IMG/VR virus record: IMGVR_UViG_3300045051_000854
Location: 1-34,890 of that record
Length of the DNA: 34,890 nucleotides
Direction: 5' to 3' (one strand)
From: a virus
The number at the start of each line of letters is the position of its first letter. Position 1 is the stretch's first letter. This document shows positions 3,676 to 30,763 of this stretch, one piece after another. The notes under the pieces are model-generated. The model was not told the origin of the DNA and searched no databases. It worked only from the letters and a program-made list of their open reading frames with translations. A program made the translations under genes and the position numbers.

Positions 3676-4749
3676 ATGGCGGTCTACCGGTACTTCGCTC
3701 ACGACCTGCGCACGAACGCCGCGCTGGCCGAGCTCCCACTCTCGTCGCTCACGTACACCGAGACCCTCAACGGGCCCGGGTCGTGGTCGGCGACGTGTCC
3801 GCTGCTCGGCAACGCCGTGCTGTTGAACGCCGCGACGGAACCGGAACGCACCGCGATCTACATCGAACGCGACGGCGCGATCGTCGGCGGTGGGATCGTG
3901 TGGACCCGCACCAGGAGTATGGATCAGCCGATGACGCTCGGCGGTGCGGGCTGGTGGTCGTTCTTCAAGCGGCAGAACCTGCGCTCGACGCTCACGTTCG
4001 CCGCTACCGATCAGCTGCTGATCGCCCGGACCCTGATCAACACCGCCCAGGCGCAGCCGGGCGCGAACATCGGGGTCACGGTCGGCGCTGAGGTGTCCGG
4101 CATCGCCCGTGATCGGGTCTACAACAGCTTCGAGTGCAAGCAGATCGCCGAGGCGGTCGAGCAGCTCGCCGACGTGCAGACCGGGTTCGACTTCGCGATC
4201 GACACCACCCAGGCCCGCGGCAAGGTCCTCGCGTTGAGCTACCCGCGCCGTGGCCGGATCTCCGGCAGCACCGGGATCGTGTTCGAGACCGGGAAGAACC
4301 TGATCGGCTACACCGCCACCCAGGACGGCACCCGGTCGGCTCGGACGTTCACCGCGATCGGCGCCGGCGACGGTGTCGACATGCTGATCGCGACGAACAC
4401 GCGCACCGACCTGCTCGACGCCGGGTTCCCGCTCACGAGTGACACCGGGTCGTTCAAGGATGTGATCGTGCAGGCGACCCTCGACGGGCACGCCCTCGCA
4501 GGTGTGAACGCTCGGGCGGTGACCCCGACGTTCTGGTCGATCGTCGTCGATCCTGATGACCCCGACGGTGGGATCAAGTCGTTCATCACCGGCGACGACG
4601 CGGTGCTGCGCATCGGCGACGACGTCAACTTCCCCCGCCAGGCCGACGGCAGTCCCGGCTATGAACGCGCGCACCGCATCCTCGAATGGTCGCTGAACGT
4701 CCCCGAGAGCGGCAAAGACACCCTCGGCGTCACTCTCGGCACGATCTGA
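3676..4749 (+). CDS. Minor tail protein, Gp37-like hub
   Basis: 357 residues, starting 3 bases after the previous stop. The N-terminal motif LTYTETLNGPGSWSA, followed by repeated short beta strands and a late VDPDDPDGG segment, resembles the ReqiPepy6 Gp37-like family of actinophage tail proteins (structural relatives of gp27/Tal hubs). Its place after Dit and before the side-tail proteins fits a baseplate hub that contacts the cell surface. No peptidase or lysozyme motif is visible. Confidence 0.72.
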   Translation: MAVYRYFAHDLRTNAALAELPLSSLTYTETLNGPGSWSATCPLLGNAVLLNAATEPERTAIYIERDGAIVGGGIVWTRTRSMDQPMTLGGAGWWSFFKRQNLRSTLTFAATDQLLIARTLINTAQAQPGANIGVTVGAEVSGIARDRVYNSFECKQIAEAVEQLADVQTGFDFAIDTTQARGKVLALSYPRRGRISGSTGIVFETGKNLIGYTATQDGTRSARTFTAIGAGDGVDMLIATNTRTDLLDAGFPLTSDTGSFKDVIVQATLDGHALAGVNARAVTPTFWSIVVDPDDPDGGIKSFITGDDAVLRIGDDVNFPRQADGSPGYERAHRILEWSLNVPESGKDTLGVTLGTI

Positions 4750-4768
4750 GCAGGAAGGGACCGGCCTG

Positions 4769-5338
4769 ATGCCCGAAGTGCTGCAACCCGACCAGCTGGC
4801 CGCCGCCCTCGCCGACTTCGATCGACGGCTCCGCAACATCGAGACCTCGACCCGTGTCGGTCTCGGCGGTGTGCGCACCAGCTGGTCCGCGTCGATCGGC
4901 ACGACGGCCACCTACGGCGCCTGGGAGACGTCGGGCGGCGGGCTTGCCACCCACCGCCGTGACAATCAGGCGGGGACGTTCGCCGGTTACCCGTTCATCT
5001 CGATGACCACACCGAGCCGGGTGCTCGCGATCATCAGCGGCACCGTCGCCGACGTCGGCGCGAGCCCGTTCCGCGCGAATCAGGGGACGCTCGGCCTGTC
5101 GATCGATGGGGCCGCCATCGGCGGCGGAACAGTGACGGTGCCGTTCCTCGGTGGGATCGAGGCGAACAACGACGCCACATCAGGGACCGGCAGCATCGCC
5201 GCAGCCGTGACGCTCCCGCTCACCCCGGGCGTGCACACCTTTCAGATCGCCATGTTCTGGACGGCGACCGGCGGCGCCGGCGCCGCACCGTACATCACCA
5301 GCGCGAACCTCGTCATCATCCCCATCGCCGCCGCCTGA
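4769..5338 (+). CDS. Small minor tail protein
   Basis: 189 residues, with an AGGAAGGGA ribosome site upstream of ATG 4769. The first 35 residues form a probable helix or coiled coil (LAAALADFDRRLRNIE), a common trimerisation segment of tail fibres. The remaining residues are Gly/Thr/Ala-rich with alternating hydrophobics, consistent with a beta-sandwich tip domain. It is the last tail gene before the lysis region. It may be a tip or fibre protein; no specific ligand can be inferred. Confidence 0.6.
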   Translation: MPEVLQPDQLAAALADFDRRLRNIETSTRVGLGGVRTSWSASIGTTATYGAWETSGGGLATHRRDNQAGTFAGYPFISMTTPSRVLAIISGTVADVGASPFRANQGTLGLSIDGAAIGGGTVTVPFLGGIEANNDATSGTGSIAAAVTLPLTPGVHTFQIAMFWTATGGAGAAPYITSANLVIIPIAAA

Positions 5339-5380
5339 CCCCCCGGGTTGCGACCCCCCCACACCGCCCTGGGAGGCGAC

Positions 5381-5494
5381 ATGATCCGCACCATCACCCT
5401 GTGCGCCGCCGCGCTCGCCGCCGGCTGGGTCGCCGGGTTCGCCGCCGCGATCGGCTGGGCGGCCTGGGACGCGCACCGGACGGTCGACCCGTGA
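5381..5494 (+). CDS. Very small membrane protein
   Basis: 37 residues. ATG 5381 follows a GGGAGG ribosome site. Almost the whole protein is one hydrophobic helix (WVAGFAAAIGWAAW) preceded by an Arg and followed by a polar tail. It overlaps the next gene by GTGA. It may be a holin partner or an accessory lysis membrane protein given its place before the endolysin, but it could also be a fortuitous small frame. Confidence 0.5.
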   Translation: MIRTITLCAAALAAGWVAGFAAAIGWAAWDAHRTVDP

Positions 5495-5643
5495 GCGATC
5501 ACACGCCGTTCGACGACTTCGACGGGCCCGACGTTGACGACAGTGCCGAGCTCGCCGCCTACGCAGCCGACCTGGCCGCCGCGGTCGAAGCGTTCGGCCT
5601 GACCCCGCTCGAGCGCGGCGTCGAAGAGGGCGGCCGACGGTGA
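5491..5643 (+). CDS. Small acidic protein
   Basis: 50 residues, GTG start overlapping the stop of the preceding gene and ending with overlap into the endolysin gene. It is strongly acidic at the N-terminus (Asp-rich) with an Ala-rich helix after it. Not recognised. The two stop-start overlaps argue that it is translated as part of the tail-lysis operon. Confidence 0.55.
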   Translation: MSDHTPFDDFDGPDVDDSAELAAYAADLAAAVEAFGLTPLERGVEEGGRR

Positions 5644-6656
5644 GCTACTTCTGGGCGCGGTGGCTGCCGGATGCGCTGCAGTCCGACCCGTTCGTCGCGG
5701 ACCGCCTGGTGGTCCTCGACGGGTGGGAGAACCGTGGTCGGCCGCCGTCGTCGACGATGTTCCTGCCGTCGGGGATCGTCGACCATCACACGGCGTGCAT
5801 GATCCGCGAAGGCCACGACCCCCAGTCCTGCATCAACGGGATCATCGCCGGCAACAGCGTCGCACCCGGCCCGATCTCGCAGCTGCTCGGCACGTTCACG
5901 CCGCCCGGGGTGCGATGGAATGGCAGCAACCCGGACCCGCGCATCGTGCTGATCGCTGCGGGCCGAGCGAACCACGCCGGGACCGGCATCTACCCGTGGG
6001 GCGCTCCCGGCGGGAACGGTTCGAGCATCGGTGTCGAGTGGTGCGGCCCGCCGGCGGGCGGGTGGCCCGATGTCGTGGTCGAGCTTCGCGCCCGGGTCGA
6101 CGCGGCGATTCTGCGGTGGAACGGCTGGTCGACCGATCAGCTGACCACGCACTGGGAGTACGCGACACCTCGTGGCCGCAAGATCGACCAGTCGGGTGCA
6201 CATCGTGACGAGCCGACGATCGGTCAGCTGCAGCCGTGGAACCCGGACCGCTGGCGCGCACGAGTAGCCAGTGTGCTCGCACCCCCACCGATCGAGATCC
6301 CACCACCGGAGGACGACGAAGTGACCGCACTCGCCAGACCAGCGCAAGCGCACGACACCCGCGAGACCCCGGCCGGGGTGCTCAAGGCCGGCGAGGTGCG
6401 CCGCATCCCGGTGTGGGTCGCGGACATCACCCAGGCCGAGCTGATCCTGACCGTGATCGGCCCACCGAACGCCGGCTACCTCACCGTGTGGGGCGAAGGC
6501 GCCGACCCGCCGAAGCCTGCGACGGTCGCCTACAACGGTGGGCCGCCCGACCGGGTGACCACCACCAGCACGCTCGTGGCCGTCCGTGAGCGGCAGGTGT
6601 ACGTCCGATCGACGCAGGCGTGCCATCTCGTCATCACCGTGGCGGGGGTTTCCTGA
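5640..6656 (+). CDS. Endolysin, N-acetylmuramoyl-L-alanine amidase with surface-binding domain
   Basis: 338 residues, GTG start overlapping the previous stop. Residues about 25-210 are an Amidase_2/PGRP-type domain that cuts the bond between muramic acid and the peptide stem. Visible key residues are VDHHT (H49/H50), NHAG (residues 111-114), IGVEW (E133), H171 and KID (K181, D183), matching the zinc-ligand and catalytic pattern of AmpD-like amidases. A Pro-rich linker at 215-226 leads to a C-terminal beta domain (about 228-338) with the pattern LTV, GYLTVWGEG, HLVITVAGVS. This is a fold widely seen in secreted proteins of Acidimicrobiia and other Actinobacteria. It probably anchors the enzyme to the cell envelope. 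No signal peptide, so export depends on the holin. Confidence 0.88.
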   Translation: MSYFWARWLPDALQSDPFVADRLVVLDGWENRGRPPSSTMFLPSGIVDHHTACMIREGHDPQSCINGIIAGNSVAPGPISQLLGTFTPPGVRWNGSNPDPRIVLIAAGRANHAGTGIYPWGAPGGNGSSIGVEWCGPPAGGWPDVVVELRARVDAAILRWNGWSTDQLTTHWEYATPRGRKIDQSGAHRDEPTIGQLQPWNPDRWRARVASVLAPPPIEIPPPEDDEVTALARPAQAHDTRETPAGVLKAGEVRRIPVWVADITQAELILTVIGPPNAGYLTVWGEGADPPKPATVAYNGGPPDRVTTTSTLVAVRERQVYVRSTQACHLVITVAGVS

Positions 6657-8137: not shown

Positions 8138-8230
8138 GAACGTGAGCAGGGATGATGCGAAGTCCCTGGTGGTGGAGTGCCTGTGCGACACGTTGCGCCT
8201 GGTAGCGGGACTGCCGGTAAGAATCGCACT

Positions 8231-8266
8231 GTTGAGGCCAGGGGTTCGATTCCCCTCACCTCCACC
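8231..8266 (+). other. attP: Candidate attP core: 3' end of a tRNA or tmRNA gene
   Basis: Bases 8240-8264 form a perfect T arm (AGGGG stem, TTCGATT loop, CCCCT) followed by the 3' acceptor strand CACCTCC and an A discriminator, then CC. The 5' part of a tRNA (matching acceptor GGxGGTG, D arm, anticodon arm) is not found upstream, so this is a fragment. Phages that integrate at tRNA or tmRNA genes carry exactly such a 3' end so that the host gene is restored. T at acceptor position 70 would fit a G3-U70 pair, as in tRNA-Ala or tmRNA, but the identity is open. It lies 110 bp before the integrase gene. The exact ends of the crossover core cannot be set from this sequence alone. Confidence 0.78.
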
Positions 8267-8282
8267 CGAATAGCACCAGCTC

Positions 8283-8317
8283 AGAGGCCCTATCCGCACT
8301 CAGCGGGTAGGGCCTCT
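8283..8317 (+). terminator. Strong hairpin downstream of the tRNA fragment
   Basis: Fifteen-base arms (AGAGGCCCTATCCGC and GCGGGTAGGGCCTCT) pair with a single G-T wobble and a 5-nt loop, followed by a short TTTC. It resembles an intrinsic terminator. It sits just after the tRNA fragment and may end tRNA transcription after integration or insulate the integrase from the host gene. Confidence 0.65.
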
Positions 8318-8326
8318 TTCGCGTCA

Positions 8327-8345
8327 TGTGGCCGAAAATGTGGCC
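8327..8345 (+). repeat. Right pair of TGTGGCC repeats (candidate integrase arm sites)
   Basis: Two copies of TGTGGCC at 8327-8333 and 8339-8345, 12 bp apart, in the same orientation and with nearly the same flanks (A before, GAA after) as the left pair at 8120-8137. The pair lies between the hairpin and the integrase start, so binding here could also regulate integrase expression. Confidence 0.6.
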
Positions 8346-8377
8346 GAACGCACACCCGTTTGTCAGACTCCCGACGC

Positions 8378-9490
8378 ATGGGGACCATGAACGAACGCTC
8401 ACCGGGGGTGTGGCAGCTGCGCGCAGACCTGCCGGCCGATGCGATCACCGGCCAGCGCCGGCGGGTGACCGAGACGTTCCATGGCGGCAAGCGCGCCGCC
8501 GCCGACCGGCTCCGCGAGCTCGAGGTCGAGGCCCGTGGTGGCCGCCGACGCAAGGACGTCACCTTGGCGGTGGCCATCAACTCATGGCGTGACCAAGCTG
8601 ATCACGCGCCGGCGACTGCAGCGAACTACGACCGGGCTGTCGCCACGCTGCCGGCGCACCTGCGACGGACCCCGGTTGGCCAACTGGACGCCAAGGTCCT
8701 GCGCACGTTCGTCGACCGCGTCGTCGTCGAGCACAACGCCCACCGCGGCCGCCTCGTCCACGCCCTCCTGTCGGGCGCGCTGCGGCACGCCTGGGAGCAG
8801 GAGTGGATCCAGTCGAACCCCATGGCACGCGTCCGGGTGCCGCCCGTCGACGCACGCTCGAGCACCACCCCCGACGCGCATGCCGTGCTGCAGCTCCTCG
8901 ATCTGGTCCGCGACGATCTCGAGCTCCACGCCTGGCTCCTGTGCCTCGTCGATCTCGGCGCTCGCCGCGGTGAGGTCCTCGCCCTGCGTTGGTCGGCGCT
9001 CGATCTTGACGCCGGCAAGGTCCGCATCCGCTCGGCGCTCGACCCGGTGCTCCACACCGAGAAGGACCCTAAGGCCCGCCAGAAGCGCACCGTCGCCATC
9101 GGGCCGGCGACGGTCGCAGCGCTACGCAGGTGGCGTGCAGCGACCCGAGAGCGGGCCCTCGCCGTGGGTGTCCGGCTCGTGGACGACCCGTTCGTGTTCA
9201 TGGCGCCGACCGACTTCACGGGCGCCTCACCGTGGCGACCCGATCTCGGCACACGCAGGTTCCGACGTCTCGCAGATCAGGTCGGCCTCGACGATGTCCG
9301 CCAGCACGACCTCCGTCACCACGTCGCAAGCGAGCTCCTCGCCGCCGGCGTCGACCCGAAGACGGTCGCTGGCCGGCTTGGCCACACCCGGGTGGCCACC
9401 ACCACCGATCTGTACGCGAGCGCCCTGCCGGCCCCAGACCGGGTGGCGGCCGAGATCCTCGCTGGCCTCCACACTCGCGGGTCCCAATAG
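8378..9490 (+). CDS. int: Tyrosine integrase
   Basis: 370 residues from ATG 8378; ATG 8387 is an alternative. It inserts the phage genome at attB and, with an excisionase, removes it. Residues 1-60 resemble an AP2-like arm-binding domain (GVWQLRADLP, then KRAAADRLRELE). Residues about 65-150 are the SAM-like core-binding domain, and 165-365 the catalytic domain. The catalytic set is visible: LGARRGEVLALRW (R196 or R197), H310-DLR-313, LGH (H336) and the nucleophile Y346. Length is normal for the family. It is separated from the repressor by accessory genes, and attP lies just upstream. Confidence 0.95.
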   Translation: MGTMNERSPGVWQLRADLPADAITGQRRRVTETFHGGKRAAADRLRELEVEARGGRRRKDVTLAVAINSWRDQADHAPATAANYDRAVATLPAHLRRTPVGQLDAKVLRTFVDRVVVEHNAHRGRLVHALLSGALRHAWEQEWIQSNPMARVRVPPVDARSSTTPDAHAVLQLLDLVRDDLELHAWLLCLVDLGARRGEVLALRWSALDLDAGKVRIRSALDPVLHTEKDPKARQKRTVAIGPATVAALRRWRAATRERALAVGVRLVDDPFVFMAPTDFTGASPWRPDLGTRRFRRLADQVGLDDVRQHDLRHHVASELLAAGVDPKTVAGRLGHTRVATTTDLYASALPAPDRVAAEILAGLHTRGSQ

Positions 9491-13165: not shown

Positions 13166-13587
13166 ACTGGAACGCCATGGACACAGACGAGCCCCAGGGA
13201 GCCGGTGTGGCGGCCCTGGCTGAAGACCTCGAGGAACGTCTCGCTGAGTACTTCAACGAGGAGTTCGATCTGACCGGCGGGTCGACACCTCGTCTCACGA
13301 TTACACGCCGGGCGCTCGCCCATGAGCTGGCCAGCACCTACCCGCTGAGTGCCCTGTTGGACGGCCTTGTCCTGGCCGGCGACGAGCTGCGGTCACGTCA
13401 GCGTCAGCGCAGCCAGGCCGAGGTGGATGCCGGGCAGATTGTCGCCCTGCGACGGGCTGTGTGTGAGCTCTACGACGAGCTCAGCCACCGGTCGGCGCCG
13501 CCGATCGACGCGTACGTGTCGGACCCTGCGGCGCTGTTCGTTGCGCAACTGGCGCTGGAAGACCGCGCGAAGGGTGACCGCTCATGA
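13162..13587 (+). CDS. Helical unknown protein
   Basis: 141 residues, ATG 13162 overlapping the preceding stop. Mostly alpha-helical and acidic in the first 40 residues (LAEDLEERLAEYFNEEF), then a central helical section with many Arg and Gln. No motif recognised. Confidence 0.6.
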   Translation: MNWNAMDTDEPQGAGVAALAEDLEERLAEYFNEEFDLTGGSTPRLTITRRALAHELASTYPLSALLDGLVLAGDELRSRQRQRSQAEVDAGQIVALRRAVCELYDELSHRSAPPIDAYVSDPAALFVAQLALEDRAKGDRS

Positions 13588-13733
13588 TGTGGGTCAGGTT
13601 CGTGGTCCTCGCTGCGCTGGTCGCGGTGCTGGCCGGTGTCCTGACGGGCGCGGGCTCAGCAGTGCTCGCGGTGGTCCTCGCTGTGGGCATGGTCGTCGTT
13701 CTTCGTGGCGAGTTCGCTGGTGGTCGCTGGTGA
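13584..13733 (+). CDS. Small membrane protein
   Basis: 49 residues, overlapping both neighbours (ATGA, GTGA); ATG 13587 is an alternative start. Two hydrophobic segments joined by a Gly-rich turn (VLTGAGSAVLAV), with a short polar C-terminus. It is a candidate membrane effector expressed early; no known family. Confidence 0.55.
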   Translation: MMWVRFVVLAALVAVLAGVLTGAGSAVLAVVLAVGMVVVLRGEFAGGRW

Positions 13734-15007: not shown

Positions 15008-15279
15008 GCGCACCGTTCACTCCGTTCACGCCTGCGGCGCGCAAGCACCTCGACAACGCCGAGAAGGTGTTGCAGGTCCTCAGGTTGCGTTGCACCGACC
15101 CTGAGCTGGTCCCGCGGGCGTTCGACGGGTACAGCGATGAGCAGCTGTCGGCGTTCCTGGCGTCGAGCGCCGTCGAGTTGCATCACGAGCTCGCTTACCA
15201 ACAGCGGGTCGGCCGGATGTCGGCCGGCGTGAGGTCGGCAGCTGCGAATCCGGCCCGGAAGGGCACGGTCCGCCGGTGA
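15004..15279 (+). CDS. Unknown early protein
   Basis: 91 residues, ATG overlapping the previous TGA. Helical and basic at the C-terminus (NPARKGTVRR). Leu-rich first half (HLDNAEKVLQVLRLR). It may bind nucleic acid through its basic tail. Not recognised; overlaps the next gene. Confidence 0.55.
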   Translation: MSAPFTPFTPAARKHLDNAEKVLQVLRLRCTDPELVPRAFDGYSDEQLSAFLASSAVELHHELAYQQRVGRMSAGVRSAAANPARKGTVRR

Positions 15280-15491
15280 CCGCGTTGGTGTACGAGGTGG
15301 TGTTCTCGACGTGGCAGCTGTTGCTGCTGTTGATGTTGTTCGTGGTGGTGCATGTGCTGGTTGCTCGTGATGTGCGCCGTCGTGAGCGGCTGTTGCGTGT
15401 GCGGTCGCGACGGTTGGAGCAGTGGGAGAACGAGCTCCGCAACGAGGCCGCCTCCCGGATGCTCGGCCCCCATTGGAAGGACGGTCGTTGA
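15276..15491 (+). CDS. Small single-pass membrane protein
   Basis: 71 residues, GTG start overlapping the previous stop. A hydrophobic segment (about residues 8-30, TWQLLLLLMLFVVVHVLV) is followed by an Arg-rich helical tail (DVRRRERLLRVRSRRLEQW). By the positive-inside rule the tail is cytoplasmic. Role unknown; it stands between unknown genes and the metallopeptidase. Confidence 0.6.
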   Translation: MTALVYEVVFSTWQLLLLLMLFVVVHVLVARDVRRRERLLRVRSRRLEQWENELRNEAASRMLGPHWKDGR

Positions 15492-23194: not shown

Positions 23195-23266
23195 TGCGCG
23201 GTGGGGAAGCGGCAACCCGTCGGACTCATGCTCCGGAGATCGCCCGTTCGAATCGGGCCCGCGCCA
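23195..23266 (+). tRNA. tRNA with CAT anticodon (Met or Ile2 type)
   Basis: 72 nt. The T arm GCCCG-TTCGAAT-CGGGC (23242-23258) is perfect, and the anticodon arm TCGGA-CTCATGC-TCCGG has one T-G pair, anticodon CAT at 23227-23229. The D arm has GGG/CCC and an AGCGGCA loop. The acceptor strands TGCGCGG and CCGCGCC pair at six of seven positions, with T1-C72 unpaired; discriminator A. CCA is not encoded. The anticodon fits elongator Met, initiator Met, or Ile with lysidine. The stem has only two G-C pairs next to the loop, so a canonical initiator is less likely. It lies just before the packaging genes. Confidence 0.8.
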
Positions 23267-23283
23267 CAGGATCGAGGTCCAAG

Positions 23284-24658: not shown

Positions 24659-26314
24659 GTGGCACTGCTGATGGTGCCGCCCCTCGACCCCAAGCCGTGG
24701 CCGACGCTCGGGCCGGGTGTGTGCGAGTGGATCGAGGACAACCTGGTGTTCGGGCCGGGCCCGTTGAAGGGCCAGCCGTACGTGATCGAGCCGGAGTTCC
24801 GTGCCGAGCTGTACCGCATGTACGAGCTGTTCCCCCGCGATCATCCTCGTGCTGGCCGGCGACGGTTCAAGCGTGTCGGCATGTCGAAGCGGAAGGGCAC
24901 CGCGAAGACCGAGAAGGCGGCGATCATCGCGGCCGCCGAGCTGGCGCCCGATGCGCCAGTGCGGTTCGATGGCTGGCGTAGGCAGGGGAGCAGCTGGTTT
25001 CCGGTCGGTCGGCCGGTCGCATCGCCGTACATCCCGATGCTCGCCTATACCGAGGAGCAGTCCGAGGATCTCGCCTACGGCGTGCTGCGCACGATCTTGG
25101 CCGAGTCGGCGATCGGTGATCACTTCGACATCGGGCTCGACCGGATCATCCGGTTGAACCACTGGGGGCGTGAGGACGGCAAGGCGCAGGCGTTGGCGTC
25201 GTCACCGAACGCTCGGGATGGTGCGCTCACCACGCACCAGCACTTCGACGAGACGCACCGCATGTATCAGCCGCGGCTCCGCAAGGCGCACGACACGATG
25301 CTGCAGAACACGTTCAAGCGTCGTGACGCTGACGCATGGACGTTGGAGACGACGACCCCGGGCGAGTTGGCGCAGGAATCGATCGCCCGTGACACCCACG
25401 AGCTCGCCGAGGCGATCGCCCACGGTGAGGTTGAGGAACCGCAGCTGTTCTACGTGCACCGGTTCGCTCCGCTTGAGCTGCCGTTGAACACGCCTCGCCA
25501 GGTGCGCGCTGCGCTCGTCGAGGCGACGGGGCCGGCGACATGGTCGGGTGACATCGATGCGCTGGTCGGCCAGTTCTTCGCCCCGAAGACGAACCGGCAG
25601 TACTTCCGCCGGGTGTGGCTCGGCCAGTGGGTCCCGGGCGGCGATCGGGCGTTCGACCTCGATGTGTGGCGCCACCTGGTGCACGACGAGCTCACCGACA
25701 TCGAACCTGGCCGGCTCGTCACCCTCGGCTTCGACGGTGCACGACGTCGTGACTCCACCGGTCTGGTGGCCACCGACGTCGAGTCCGGCTTCCAGAAGGT
25801 GCTCGGCTACTGGCCTCGACCCGATGACGCACCCGACGACTGGGAGGTGCCAGCCGCTGAGGTGGACCTGGCGGTCGAGTCGGCGTTCTCGACCTACAGC
25901 GTGTGGCGGTTGTACGCCGACCCGCCGTACTGGGATGAGTGGGTGGACTCGTGGGCGGGCCGGTACGGCGCCGAGCGTGTGGTGCGCTGGTGGACGAACC
26001 GTGACAAGGCGATGGCCGGCGCGCTGCGGGTGTTCAAGGATGCTCAGCTGACCGGCGACTTGTCTCATGACGGTGATGAGCGGTACGCAGCCCACATCGG
26101 CAACGCGTTCCGCAAGGACCTGCAGGTGCGTGTCGAGGATGGCGCTGAGCCGCTGTTCACGATCCGCAAGGAACGACCGGACTCGCCGTTGAAGATCGAC
26201 CTGGCGATGGCCGGCTGCCTGTCGTGGGAAGCCCGGGGCGATGCGATTGCCGCGGGTGCCAAGGCGGAGTCGACACGCTCGAAGTCGCGGGTGATGGGAA
26301 CGAGGAGGAGGTGA
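24659..26314 (+). CDS. Terminase large subunit
   Basis: 551 residues, GTG 24659. ATPase part at about 40-290: SKRKGTAKTE (76-85) stands where the Walker A loop is expected, and HFDETH (195-200) is the Walker B acidic motif. Nuclease part at about 350-530 with GFDG (D359), LYADPPYWDEW and later acidic residues, an RNase-H-like fold. It packages DNA into the procapsid and cuts it. The Walker A is atypical (no clear GKT/S); the residue doing that job is not certain. The next gene is portal, the standard order. Confidence 0.9.
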   Translation: MALLMVPPLDPKPWPTLGPGVCEWIEDNLVFGPGPLKGQPYVIEPEFRAELYRMYELFPRDHPRAGRRRFKRVGMSKRKGTAKTEKAAIIAAAELAPDAPVRFDGWRRQGSSWFPVGRPVASPYIPMLAYTEEQSEDLAYGVLRTILAESAIGDHFDIGLDRIIRLNHWGREDGKAQALASSPNARDGALTTHQHFDETHRMYQPRLRKAHDTMLQNTFKRRDADAWTLETTTPGELAQESIARDTHELAEAIAHGEVEEPQLFYVHRFAPLELPLNTPRQVRAALVEATGPATWSGDIDALVGQFFAPKTNRQYFRRVWLGQWVPGGDRAFDLDVWRHLVHDELTDIEPGRLVTLGFDGARRRDSTGLVATDVESGFQKVLGYWPRPDDAPDDWEVPAAEVDLAVESAFSTYSVWRLYADPPYWDEWVDSWAGRYGAERVVRWWTNRDKAMAGALRVFKDAQLTGDLSHDGDERYAAHIGNAFRKDLQVRVEDGAEPLFTIRKERPDSPLKIDLAMAGCLSWEARGDAIAAGAKAESTRSKSRVMGTRRR

Positions 26315-26317
26315 GCC

Positions 26318-27760
26318 GTGGCTGCAGTGAACTCGCCCGAGTGGTGGGCCGACCGGCTCTCCAAGAAGCTCTCCGCCCGTCAGTCGAAGCTCGAACGTCT
26401 CGAGCGCTACTACGACGGCAAGCAGCCGTTGTCGTTCGCTACGTCGCAGTTCCGGGCGGAGTTCGGGTCGATGTTGGCCGCGGTTCAGGACAACTGGTGC
26501 CAGCTGGTGGTGTCCGCTGTCGAGGAACGGCTCGACGTCGAGGGGTTCCGTGTCGGTGATGATGACCAGGCCGACGCTCAGGCGTGGAACCTGTGGCAGG
26601 CGAACGGACTCGACGCCGACAGTCAGGTGGCGCACACCGAGGCGTTGAAGCTGTCGGAGGCGCACGTCATCGTGTGGCGTCCCGATCTGGATGCGCCGCC
26701 GGTGATCACTGTGGAGCACCCGAAGTACGTCACGGTCGAGTTGGACCCGGAGAACCGTTCACGTCGACTTGCTGCGGCGAAGGTGTGGCGTGACCCAGAC
26801 GATGGCCGGCTGTGCACCGTCTATCTGCCTGATCGAATCGTGAAGCTGCGCGCTGGCCAGCGCGGTTGGGAACCCCGTCCGTCCGCCGGTGATCAGTGGC
26901 AGATCGACAACCCGCTCGGTGTGGTGCCGGTCGTGCCGCTGTTCAACCGGCCGGGTCTGCTGACCGAGGCGGCAAGCGAGATTGAGTCGATCCTGCCGAA
27001 GCAGGACATGGTCAACAAGCTGATCGCCGACATGATGATCGCCGCCGAGTACGGGGCGTTCCGGCAGCGTTGGGCGACGGGCATCGAGGTGCCTAAGGAC
27101 CCGATCACTGGCGAGGACCTCGAGGACTTTCAGACCGCAGTCGATCGGCTGTGGCATGTCCCGGCGCCGGACGCCAAGTTCGGCGAGTTCGAGCAGACCG
27201 ACCTCAACGTGTACGTGAAGGCGATCGAGATGCTCGTGCAGCACATCGCCAGCCAGACCGCCACCCCGCCGCACTACCTGCTCTCCACCGGCCAGCTGCC
27301 GTCGGGTGAGTCGCTTCGCGCTGCCGAGGCGCCGCTGGTGGCGAAGGCGCGTCGCAAGCAGCGGATCTTCGGCCAGGCGTGGGAAGAGGTGACACGGCTG
27401 GCGTTGCGGCTCGATGGCCGTGACGACGTCGATCAGTCGACGGTGATCGAGACGATCTGGCGTGACCCGGAAAACCGGACCGAAGCCGAGCACATCGACG
27501 CCGTGATCAAGCAGAAGGCGTTGGATGTGCCGATCGAGGAGCTGTGGCGCCTCGCAGGTTTCTCGCAGGTCGAAATCGACCGGATGCGCCGGCAGCGGGT
27601 CGAGCAGCTGACGATGCTGGCGCTCGGCCAGCCGATCACCGCGTTCGACGGCGAAGGCGTCCCTGCCGACGAGATCAAGACCCGCGCCGAGGCCGCTCAG
27701 GCGTTGGTTGCCGGCGGCATGTCGCTCGACGATGCGTTGCACAAGGCCGGCCTGGCCTGA
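26318..27760 (+). CDS. Portal protein (SPP1 gp6-like)
   Basis: 480 residues, GTG 26318, with GAGGAGGTGA just upstream. Portal pattern: N-terminal helical wing (RLSKKLSARQSKLERLERYY), DNWCQLVVSAVEERL, a middle beta part (VWRPDLDAPPVITVEHP), the clip region (VPVVPLFNRPG) and a C-terminal stem with helices (PLVAKARRKQRIFGQAWEE). It forms the ring at one vertex through which DNA is pumped. The DUF/Phage_prot_Gp6 family is common in actinophages. Stop overlaps the start of the next gene (TGATGG). Confidence 0.93.
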   Translation: MAAVNSPEWWADRLSKKLSARQSKLERLERYYDGKQPLSFATSQFRAEFGSMLAAVQDNWCQLVVSAVEERLDVEGFRVGDDDQADAQAWNLWQANGLDADSQVAHTEALKLSEAHVIVWRPDLDAPPVITVEHPKYVTVELDPENRSRRLAAAKVWRDPDDGRLCTVYLPDRIVKLRAGQRGWEPRPSAGDQWQIDNPLGVVPVVPLFNRPGLLTEAASEIESILPKQDMVNKLIADMMIAAEYGAFRQRWATGIEVPKDPITGEDLEDFQTAVDRLWHVPAPDAKFGEFEQTDLNVYVKAIEMLVQHIASQTATPPHYLLSTGQLPSGESLRAAEAPLVAKARRKQRIFGQAWEEVTRLALRLDGRDDVDQSTVIETIWRDPENRTEAEHIDAVIKQKALDVPIEELWRLAGFSQVEIDRMRRQRVEQLTMLALGQPITAFDGEGVPADEIKTRAEAAQALVAGGMSLDDALHKAGLA

Positions 27761-28485
27761 TGGTCGCCGAGGTTGAGCTCCGTCGGCTCGCCGTTCCGTA
27801 CCGTTCGCGGTTCGGTCAGGCGCTGATGGTCGCCGATCAGACGGTCACCCGGCTGTACGTCGCGACCGCCCCGACCGACGTCGACTTGTGGGTGACGACA
27901 GCGGTCCCGGTGGTGCAGGGGCTGCAGCAGGCGTTGATCGCCCTCGCCCAGCGGTACACGGCTTCGCAGCTCGAGCTGTTCACCCCGACCCGACCGGTTC
28001 GCCTGGTCGATGTCGCCGACGAGCTCCTCGTGCGCACCGACACGCCGTGGTTGCGTAGCCCGATGCTGCGTGAACGCCGACTGGTTGCGGTGGGTCTCCC
28101 GCCGTCGGAGGCACGGCAGCGTGCAGCTGGCTACGCCGGAGATCTGATGACCGCAGAAGCTCGGGTGACTGAGCGGGCTGCGGCCACGGCGACCTATCGG
28201 CAGCACTGGGACACTCGTGCACCGTTGAAGTATCGGCGGATCCTGGAGGGTGGTGCGTGCGGCTGGTGCCGTGTCGTGGCCGACCGGTTGTACAGCGCCG
28301 ACGACAGCGGCAAGTGGCACGCCCACTGCCGGTGCACGTGGCGGCTGATCACCCCGGCCGAGGCAGAGGCGCACGAGCCGAAGTTCACCGGTGACCGATG
28401 GAAGGACGTGATCAACGAGCGTGCGACGCGCCCGGTTGAGAGCCGCCGCCAGGTCCCCGATCTCACCCCGGTCCCCGCCGGCTGA
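27760..28485 (+). CDS. MuF-like capsid maturation protein
   Basis: 241 residues from ATG 27760. N-terminal 150 residues helical (VQGLQQALIALAQRYTASQL). The C-terminal part holds the MuF signature: GGACGWCRVVADRLYS (C167, C170) and WHAHCRCTWR (H187, H189, C190, C192), probably a zinc site. MuF proteins sit inside the capsid, bound to the portal, and leave with the DNA in some phages. No toxin domain is fused to it. Position between portal and scaffold is standard. Confidence 0.85.
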   Translation: MVAEVELRRLAVPYRSRFGQALMVADQTVTRLYVATAPTDVDLWVTTAVPVVQGLQQALIALAQRYTASQLELFTPTRPVRLVDVADELLVRTDTPWLRSPMLRERRLVAVGLPPSEARQRAAGYAGDLMTAEARVTERAAATATYRQHWDTRAPLKYRRILEGGACGWCRVVADRLYSADDSGKWHAHCRCTWRLITPAEAEAHEPKFTGDRWKDVINERATRPVESRRQVPDLTPVPAG

Positions 28486-28530: not shown

Positions 28531-29199
28531 ATGGCACCGACCACTCACCGTCCCTTCACCCTCGTGCGAGGCGTGCTTCTCCGTCACCCCGAGAAGGAGG
28601 ACAACGGCACCACCGATGGCGCCGACAGCGATCACGGAGACGCGACCGCCGGCAGCGATCTGGGTGAGGCTGGCAAGAAGGCGCTCGACGAAGAACGTCG
28701 GGCCCGTCGGGCGGCGGAGAAGCAGGCCAAGGATCAGGCGACACAGCTGGCGACGTTGCAGCAACAGCTCGACGAGCTCAGCAAGAAGAACCAGACCGAC
28801 GACGAACGCAAGCTCGCCGAAGCGGTCGAGGCCGCCAAGGCCGACGCTGTGAAGGCGCTGCAGGATCAGTTCGCCGGGCAGCTCGCGGAGAAGGATCGCC
28901 AGATTGTCGGCGCCCGTCTCACGGCGATCGCTGCTGGCAAGCTGACGAACCCGGCCGATGTGCTGGCGTTCGTCGATCTCGACGACCTCGACCGCGACGG
29001 CGAGGGCAACGTCACCGACAAGGCCCTCTCGGGGGCCGTCGAGGAGCTCCTGAAGGAGCGTCCCTATCTGGCTGCGACGGCTGGCAAGGGTGGAGGGTCC
29101 GTCGATCAGGGTCGCCGCAAGGACGGCCCGGTCGACTTCAAGGACCGCAAGCAGTTGGCTGCCGATCTGGCCAAGTTCGGTCTGACCCCGCGCGGATGA
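28531..29199 (+). CDS. Capsid scaffolding protein with N-terminal cleavage-type peptide
   Basis: 222 residues from ATG 28531; AGGAGG at 28518-28523 is a strong ribosome site. The N-terminal 20 residues contain THR (5-7) and VRGVLLRHP (12-20), almost the same peptide as in the capsid protein. Then an acidic linker (DNGTTDGADSDHGD), a long coiled coil (about 50-115, rich in Ala, Glu, Lys and Gln), and a more hydrophobic C-terminal part. Charge pattern and place between portal/MuF and capsid define it as a scaffold, which shapes the procapsid and is removed before DNA fills it. Stop overlaps the next ATG. Confidence 0.88.
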   Translation: MAPTTHRPFTLVRGVLLRHPEKEDNGTTDGADSDHGDATAGSDLGEAGKKALDEERRARRAAEKQAKDQATQLATLQQQLDELSKKNQTDDERKLAEAVEAAKADAVKALQDQFAGQLAEKDRQIVGARLTAIAAGKLTNPADVLAFVDLDDLDRDGEGNVTDKALSGAVEELLKERPYLAATAGKGGGSVDQGRRKDGPVDFKDRKQLAADLAKFGLTPRG

Positions 29200-29381
29200 T
29201 CCGTGCCGAGGTGCTCGACCGTGACGGCGAGTGGCAGCTGACGATCTCCGGGCATTCACGCGATGTGGCGTGCGCGGCGGTCACCGCCATGGAGCAAACC
29301 GTGGCGATCTGGTTGGAGCAGCTCGCCGAGTTGAACCCGACCGACATCCAGTTCACCTACCGCCAGGAGGCAACACCATGA
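29196..29381 (+). CDS. prp: Prp-like cysteine protease (YsxB/DUF464 type), minimal form
   Basis: 61 residues, ATG 29196 overlapping the scaffold stop. The start MIRAEVLDRDGEWQLTISGH and the following DVACAAVTAM fit the ribosomal-processing cysteine protease Prp, whose core is a GHA motif and DIVCAxxS; here GHS (H20) and VACAAVT (C26) are the likely catalytic pair. The loop between them is about 6 residues shorter than in S. aureus Prp, and the protein is about 45 residues shorter in total. Prp is known to clip N-terminal extensions of ribosomal protein L27 and of scaffold and capsid proteins of staphylococcal phage. Here it sits between the scaffold and capsid genes, which share an N-terminal peptide, so it is probably the head protease. 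Confidence 0.72.
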   Translation: MIRAEVLDRDGEWQLTISGHSRDVACAAVTAMEQTVAIWLEQLAELNPTDIQFTYRQEATP

Positions 29382-30763
29382 ACACCCTCATCGTGCTGCT
29401 CGCCATCACACTCGTCGTGGCCGCAGCCTTCACCATCATCCGTGGCTCCGCCCACGGCATCGCCCGCACCCATCGCACTCAGGTGCGCTCGGTGCTGCTC
29501 CGCCACCCCGTCCGTGATGTGCTCCCTGCAGCTCTGCAGGCACAGATCCAGGACGGCATGTTGGAGGCGGCGTTCGACAACGCCCTGCGGCCCGACTTCC
29601 TGTTCCCCGCAGCTGCGGTGTCCGACCCGGTGTCGGGTGGGGTCGGTCAGCGGATCACCCGCACTCGTACCGGTCTGCTCACGCCAACCACCACGGCAAT
29701 CACCGGGTCCGATCCGGCTGCCGCCACCTACTCGATCGAGCAGTACTCCGGTGTGCTCGATCAGTACGGCAACTCGGTCGACACCAACATGCTCGGCTCG
29801 GCCGTTGGCCAGGCGTCGAAGTTCGTCCGCGACGTCGTCACGTTGGGCATCAACGCCGGCCAGTCCCTCAACCGGCTGTGCCGTGACCGCCTGTACCGCG
29901 TGTACAACGGCGGCCGCACCTGGTGCCGCACCGCTGACGGCGGATCCAACACGACGATCGACGTGAGCTCGGTCGACGGGTTCGAGTTCGTGCTCGTCAA
30001 CGGTGTCCCGACCGCAGTGTCGGCATCGACCCCGCTGAGCGTCACCGTCAACGGTGTCGCCAACACGGTGACCGGTGTCAACCGTGCCGCCCGCACCTTG
30101 ACGCTTGGCACCGCCCGCGTCGATGTGCTCGGCGACCCGATCGTCGCCGTGAACGCCCCGGTCACGCTGCGTCCGAACGCTCGGACCACGGCCTTCACCC
30201 TGATCGGCACTGACAACGCCACGGTCGGTCTGTTCTTCGACGCGGTCGCCCGACTGCGCGCGATGAACGTCCCGACGTTTCCCGACGGCAACTACCAGGC
30301 GCACGTGGATGCGACCACGATGCGGCAGCTGCTGTCGGACACCGAGTTCCGTCAGGCCTTCCAGAGCCAGGGTCCGAGCGACACCTACACCCAGGGTCGC
30401 CTGACGATCTTCGGTGGTGTGGCGTTCACCCTCAACATCGAGGCCCCGACGTTCAGCGGTGACGGCCAGGCACTCACGGTCCGTCGCCCGATCGTGCTCG
30501 GCGCCGAGCCGGTGATCGCCATGCCCCTCGAGGATCAGGGGATGCTCATCGACGAGACCCCCGTCTCCGATGTCCCCGGGATCAGCCTCATCGAGGTCGC
30601 CCCGCAGAGCCAGGTTGCGCTGATCGTGCGCCCGCCGCAGGACCGCCTGCAGCAGGTGATCAGCTCGAGCTGGGCATGGACCGGGGACTACGCCGTCCCG
30701 ACCGACTCAACGACCGGTGACTCGGCGATCGCCAAGCGCGCCGTCGTCATCGAGCACATCTGA
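29378..30763 (+). CDS. Major capsid protein with N-terminal membrane segment
   Basis: 461 residues from ATG 29378, with an ideal AGGAGG 7 nt upstream and overlap with the prp stop. Residues 3-21 form a hydrophobic segment (TLIVLLAITLVVAAAFTII), followed by basic residues and THR (31-33), then VRSVLLRHP (36-44), as in the scaffold. HK97-type capsid body from about residue 55 (DGMLEAAFDNALRPDFLFP, then NSVDTNMLGSAVGQASKFV). Around 190-270 there is a beta-rich Ig-like insertion (VNGVPTAVSASTPLSVTVNG). C-terminus typical (GDSAIAKRAVVIEHI). Basic residues after the membrane segment place the body in the cytoplasm. The leader is unusual for a capsid protein and is probably clipped off at the shared peptide. 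Confidence 0.85.
   Translation: MNTLIVLLAITLVVAAAFTIIRGSAHGIARTHRTQVRSVLLRHPVRDVLPAALQAQIQDGMLEAAFDNALRPDFLFPAAAVSDPVSGGVGQRITRTRTGLLTPTTTAITGSDPAAATYSIEQYSGVLDQYGNSVDTNMLGSAVGQASKFVRDVVTLGINAGQSLNRLCRDRLYRVYNGGRTWCRTADGGSNTTIDVSSVDGFEFVLVNGVPTAVSASTPLSVTVNGVANTVTGVNRAARTLTLGTARVDVLGDPIVAVNAPVTLRPNARTTAFTLIGTDNATVGLFFDAVARLRAMNVPTFPDGNYQAHVDATTMRQLLSDTEFRQAFQSQGPSDTYTQGRLTIFGGVAFTLNIEAPTFSGDGQALTVRRPIVLGAEPVIAMPLEDQGMLIDETPVSDVPGISLIEVAPQSQVALIVRPPQDRLQQVISSSWAWTGDYAVPTDSTTGDSAIAKRAVVIEHI

Follow-up and report, generated by a model that had tools for sequence, protein, structure and literature searches.

Head genes of the phage

The window (the whole 34,890-nucleotide stretch of viral DNA analysed here) carries a temperate phage with a tyrosine integrase (8177-9490), an amidase endolysin (5640-6656) and a tRNA-Met (23195-23267). 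The record opens within a tape-measure gene (13-1866), ends in tail genes, and has the appearance of a permuted genome that is close to complete. Three short ORFs (5348-5494, 13584-13733 and 15276-15491) encode strongly hydrophobic segments and have no PHROG match; the first of these, which directly precedes the endolysin, is a possible holin. The head genes and the features of the capsid region considered here are as follows:

24659-26314, plus strand: terminase large subunit (PHROG 9, E 1.1e-52)
26318-27760, plus strand: portal protein, SPP1 Gp6-like (PF05133, E 2.3e-33)
27757-28485, plus strand: minor head protein, VG15/MuF type (PF25310, E 1.3e-6; PHROG 1522, E 8.6e-14)
28531-29199, plus strand: scaffolding protein, 222 aa (PF06810, E 3.8e-10; PHROG 4708, E 6.1e-27)
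28564-28590, plus strand: motif VRGVLLRHP at the scaffold N-terminus (residues 12-20), shared with the capsid protein
29196-29381, plus strand: 61-aa Prp-type cysteine protease (H20, C26), overlapping the scaffold stop and the capsid start (PF04327, E 1.1e-5)
29365-29370, plus strand: ribosome-binding site AGGAGG, 7 nt upstream of ATG 29378; AGGAGG also precedes the start in the related locus L001
29378-30763, plus strand: major capsid protein (MCP) precursor, 461 aa, HK97 fold (PHROG 1357, E 1.5e-16; AlphaFold pLDDT 83; Z 19.6 to the capsid protein of Ralstonia phage GP4)
29384-29440, plus strand: hydrophobic segment of membrane-spanning type, MCP residues 3-21 (mean Kyte-Doolittle hydropathy 2.83, null P 1.5e-5; common only to L001)
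29441-29482, plus strand: basic linker RGSAHGIARTHRTQ, MCP residues 22-35, by direct reading
29483-29509, plus strand: presumed Prp recognition and cleavage motif VRSVLLRHP, MCP residues 36-44 (8/9 residues common to the scaffold motif)

The capsid gene and its start

In a profile search the product of the last gene listed matched PHROG 1357, a family of major head proteins, and it is 49% identical to the MCP of Streptomyces phage Kromp; no Pfam family matches it. An AlphaFold model was built on 55 relatives (pLDDT 83). Phage capsid proteins make up the Foldseek matches listed for this model (best E 1.4e-10), and VIA-align superimposes it on the GP4 capsid protein with a Z score of 19.6 and an rmsd of 3.4 over 284 residues. 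As modelled, the protein is an HK97-fold major capsid protein, of which residues 2-42 find no confident placement.

The initial annotation had assigned the start to ATG 29378, with the AGGAGG placed for it and the ATG overlapping the protease stop, and had named ATG 29558 as an internal start that would undo its reading. The assignment holds: the spacing is 7 nt, the start and the stop of the upstream Prp gene share the sequence ATGA, and up to the conserved body no internal in-frame start has a ribosome site. Translation from ATG 29558 would moreover lose the conserved residues 40-60, and internal in-frame GTGs were likewise rejected, no ribosome site being seen for them. L40, R42, H43, P50, Q58 and G60 are each conserved in at least 90% of 55 MCP homologues. 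The leader itself is coding in character, its G+C at codon positions 1, 2 and 3 being 0.55, 0.36 and 0.86 (0.59, 0.27 and 1.00 in the L001 leader). An origin of the leader by frameshift or as a fused separate gene was rejected, since it lies in a single open frame of coding composition.

An N-terminal segment with features of a signal-anchor

Residues 3-21 had been described in the initial annotation as a clean hydrophobic helix with basic residues after it, and the hydrophobicity and the charges are borne out. On the Kyte-Doolittle scale this 19-residue span averages 2.83, and on the Wimley-White octanol scale it sums to -9.8 kcal/mol; the call of a membrane segment rests on these hydropathy scales. 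The span ranks highest in hydropathy among all 19-residue spans in the record's listing of coding-like ORFs. A hydropathy of at least 2.83 is reached by 1.5e-5 of 45-residue leaders drawn from the residues of this phage's structural proteins, an indicative value, as the null model disregards residue order.

The segment is followed by R22, R30, R33, R37 and R42 together with histidines, the first acidic residue being D47, and is preceded by a tail (MNT) that bears no charged side chain. Because positive charge is present only after the segment, the positive-inside rule predicts an N-out/C-in orientation. Type III (N-out/C-in) signal-anchors have 18-22 uncharged hydrophobic residues near the N-terminus and a more positive cytoplasmic (C-terminal) flank; both are found here. 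In these respects the MCP segment resembles an N-out/C-in signal-anchor, and it is predicted to take that orientation in the membrane.

Distribution of the segment among relatives

Scans of viral contigs and species genomes yielded about 100 loci, reduced to 89 distinct MCPs with a supported start, among which the window's gene is entered in the leader hydropathy table as L006. The initial annotation had proposed a comparison of homologue starts. L001, whose MCP is 72% identical to that of the window, has an equal segment: its leader is MKYFPLVVAFVAFVVAFAVIVTPHLFRSDRSQVRPVLHRHP, with the same AGGAGG upstream and the same mean hydropathy of 2.83. The other 87 of the 89 proteins, however, have different and non-hydrophobic leaders, the best of them reaching a hydropathy of 1.26. 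The rest of the closest clade (L032, L033 and L034, at ~70-72% identity) carries short basic leaders. No further carrier was found in the closest-clade scans, the species-genome collection or 396 sampled genomes of the phylum. The segment was accordingly rejected as a general feature of the family, being absent from those 87 MCPs and from a further survey around Prp genes.

Between the window and L001, 5/19 aligned segment residues are identical, as against 75% of the MCP body, and the hydrophobic character of the segment would thus appear either to have persisted or to have arisen twice. In the capsid tree L001 groups with L032, which has no segment (support 85/93), whereas Prp identity places the window nearer to L001 (72%) than to L032 (61%). 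The capsid tree does not support one clean clade for the anchor-bearing phages; two gains of the segment, a single gain followed by loss, or an exchange would each account for the pattern. Its presence in only two non-sister phages indicates that it is dispensable in the family.

A phage-borne Prp-type protease gene and a motif shared by scaffold and capsid

The gene that overlaps the capsid start encodes a small protein whose match to PF04327 (E 1.1e-5, 26 bits) lies just below the curated cut-off of 27; the Prps of related prophages exceed that cut-off in 5/6 genomes. A profile built from 52 relatives finds the solved Prps 2g0i (E 3e-6) and 4peo/7kld, and a Foldseek search with a model of the 61-aa protein (pLDDT 90) gave no significant match. 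G19, H20 and C26 are invariant in the 52 copies, and the position four residues after the cysteine, which corresponds to Ser38, is T in the window and S or T in the aligned rows read; the roles of the catalytic G-H, C and Ser38 are as described for Prp (PMC9405229). The profile matches and the invariant residues point to a Prp-type cysteine protease (MEROPS C108), with predicted proteolytic activity.

Phage 'mini-Prps' of ~61-65 aa (106 in S. aureus) are widespread in actinobacterial prophages, with about 50 relatives (for example L007:4760-4945); Kromp is the sole isolated phage found with one, annotated only as 'protease'. The window clade has a His-to-Cys spacing of 6, compared with 10 for most relatives and 12 for the S. 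aureus enzyme. In Prps of this clade (29250-29273, residues 19-26) the mobile loop of the active site, which separates the catalytic histidine and cysteine, is thus four residues shorter than in most relatives. The L001 Prp frame (4739-5005) stays open across the capsid start and continues for 27 codons within the capsid gene, up to where the anchor-coding part ends.

The Prp gene stands between two genes that bear a common motif, in the order scaffold, Prp, MCP. The MCP and scaffold motifs agree in 8/9 residues, a figure to be compared with a maximum of 6 in 3000 shuffles. More broadly, a hydrophobic-x-R-H/F motif is present in both N-termini in 68 of 71 distinct loci that have all three genes, loci that are related and hence non-independent, against a mean of 0.5 and a maximum of 3 in shuffles; a few matches to the pattern fall outside the true motif. 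Other Prp-bearing relatives have a short, non-hydrophobic MCP leader that ends in a similar motif, and MCP relatives lacking Prp (L005, L008, L105 and L106) have neither leader nor motif. In most actinobacterial prophages the motif is WFxLxRHD in both proteins, and in some lineages it varies in parallel (RFD in both L113 proteins, VLLRHP in both here). Two Streptomyces prophages (L023:5902-6030 and L086) have capsid leaders with two motif copies, WFRLDRHD ... WFDLGRHD.

We therefore regard VRSVLLRHP as a strongly supported predicted Prp cleavage motif, at which the precursor is presumed to be cut. In the window a proline follows the motif histidine; this proline and the shorter Prp loop of the window clade make both the activity of the enzyme and the exact bond uncertain. 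The shortened loop and the altered motif (VLLRHP rather than WFxLxRHD) look like enzyme-substrate co-evolution.

In six of six actinobacterial genomes, which are hosts of related prophages, the Prp match lies only inside the prophage, and the host L27 (N-terminus MAHKKGASS) carries no cleavable extension. With no other Prp in those hosts and no extension on L27, the evident Prp substrates are the phage's own scaffold and MCP.

Comparison with known systems

The nearest known system is that of phage 80α, whose capsid and scaffold both lose 13-14 N-terminal residues to the host Prp at a shared motif (PMC5744158). The 80α procapsid contains 415 capsid copies, with proteins already cut and with the MCP N-arms pointing inward; capsid proteins that are pre-cut or uncuttable are both viable, and MCP cleavage is dispensable (PMC5744158). 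The window phage resembles 80α in its Prp-family protease, the N-terminal motif shared by capsid and scaffold that marks the cut, the N-terminal propeptides and the HK97-fold capsid. It differs in carrying its own 61-aa Prp, where 80α uses the host enzyme that also matures L27; in the part removed, which would be ~43 residues with an anchor-like segment rather than 13-14 without one; and in the motif, which is LNLQ(F/H)F in 80α and hydrophobic-x-R-H here. By analogy, we read the locus as a self-contained version of the 80α Prp system, with two phages having a signal-anchor in the MCP propeptide.

Kromp and related actinobacterial prophages have a homologous MCP (~47-59% identity), scaffold and Prp gene (Kromp gp6, annotated 'protease') in the same order. 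Unlike the window phage, the Kromp group has shorter leaders with the motif WFxLxRH (doubled in one pair), no hydrophobic segment, and a longer Prp active-site loop.

Two other systems link coat or head assembly to the membrane. In T4, prohead initiation (gp20/gp40) does so, but the membrane-bound part is the portal, aided by gp40 and perhaps host YidC, and not the MCP (PMC9958956); in the portal of the window phage no hydrophobic span exceeds a Kyte-Doolittle value of 1.0. The major coat protein pVIII of filamentous phages is inserted in the membrane at one stage, and some of these phages give it a leader that a peptidase cuts off; it differs in fold, in forming an extruded virion with no HK97 shell, and in that a cellular peptidase cuts the leader after insertion (PMC3185693). 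Phage JBD30 was considered as a precedent for membrane assembly and set aside, the passages found reporting none. The literature searched (titles and abstracts, and few subscription papers) contained no precedent for an HK97-fold MCP with an N-terminal membrane segment.

Possible roles of the leader

We propose transient N-out/C-in tethering of the MCP precursor, released through cleavage by the phage Prp ahead of shell closure, and give this reading a probability of about 0.5. We infer the following course, from membrane insertion through cleavage, its exact bond and its timing to the benefit of the tether. Translation would give an MCP precursor whose propeptide, ~43 residues long, combines two modules: the signal-anchor of residues 3-21 and the basic linker ending in VRSVLLRHP. 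The anchor would insert so that its short N-tail faces outward, leaving linker and body cytoplasmic. Prp, encoded by the overlapping gene upstream, would then cut the MCP at or beside H43-P44 and the scaffold at the matching site H19-P20, releasing the capsid subunit while the hydrophobic peptide stays in the membrane. Until Prp acts, before or during shell growth, the tether would hold MCP subunits at the membrane.

We favor tethering because the start and the hydrophobic segment are well supported; because the L001 leader is equally hydrophobic despite its low segment identity; because the related prophages' hosts examined have no Prp outside the prophage and no extension on L27; because the scaffold/MCP motif recurs across the Prp-bearing loci, and leader and motif are absent without Prp; because the motifs change in parallel and the Prp GH and C do not vary; and because the host Prp cuts both N-termini in 80α (PMC5744158). 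The restriction of the segment to two non-sister phages weakens it. The initial annotation had suggested that subunits are held at the membrane and released by the protease, and for this the signal-anchor features, the motif downstream and the adjoining Prp-family gene do speak, with the same narrow distribution (2/89) counting against it.

An alternative is a neutral propeptide, a discarded and quickly removed sequence that drifts freely, has no role and became hydrophobic in two phages by drift. Leaders in this family are very variable in length and sequence, the close relatives L032-L034 do without the segment, and the viability of 80α with pre-cut or uncuttable MCP implies that a capsid propeptide can be functionally neutral. 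Drift would nevertheless have to produce a hydrophobicity expected by chance in so few leaders (1.5e-5); if the two segments have one origin, free drift would leave all 14 changed sites with uncharged, non-amide residues at P ~3e-4 to 4e-3; and an anchor this strong, on the virion's most abundant protein, should carry a cost if it does nothing. We consider neutrality rather unlikely, though it is the most probable of the alternatives.

A little less probable still is a role in assembly rather than at the membrane, with the segment binding a chaperone, the scaffold or the N-arms and blocking assembly until Prp removes it. The 80α N-arm lies inside the procapsid and contacts the scaffold, and its authors suggest that the N-termini recruit a common chaperone (PMC5744158); the lack of a confident place for residues 2-42 in the AlphaFold model also fits. 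Nineteen uncharged residues with strong basic charge after them nonetheless far exceed the hydrophobicity that chaperone binding needs, and the scaffold has no comparable segment.

It is improbable that the freed peptide is itself the functional product, accumulating by the thousands in the membrane to affect lysis timing or exclude other phages: the hundreds of subunits cut per virion would yield as many membrane peptides, but the phage already has an endolysin and separate short hydrophobic ORFs as candidate holins, and nothing ties the peptide to lysis. Export of the MCP by a cleavable Sec signal peptide, for which G-S-A ahead of H26 is a conceivable signal-peptidase site, is very improbable, as the n-region (MNT) is not basic, strong basic charge follows the segment, L001 has no such site, and an exported MCP could not join packaging.

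Returning to the tethered precursor, the suggestion in the initial annotation that procapsids may start at the membrane claims more than the evidence gives, in view of the inward N-arms of 80α and its indifference to capsid cleavage. The inward N-arms and already-cut procapsids of 80α make cleavage before or during growth likelier than a completed procapsid attached to the membrane. We accordingly regard as doubtful the stronger proposal of a small group of tailed phages in which a signal-anchored HK97-fold MCP precursor nucleates shell assembly at the membrane and is released by a dedicated Prp cutting between anchor and body.

Implications

The sequence feature is confirmed, and the mechanism is a proposal, a variant on the theme of 80α and Prp. 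The comparison also reveals a phage-borne Prp uncoupled from ribosome maturation, with cut-site motifs parallel in scaffold and capsid. Capsid proteins with the HK97 fold are regarded as soluble, and it is for T4, by way of the portal, that assembly of heads on the membrane has been demonstrated. If true, the proposal would amount to a membrane-tethered route to an icosahedral procapsid, distinct from the portal-based case of T4, and the anchor with its cognate protease would make a membrane role in head assembly directly testable in a two- or three-gene system.
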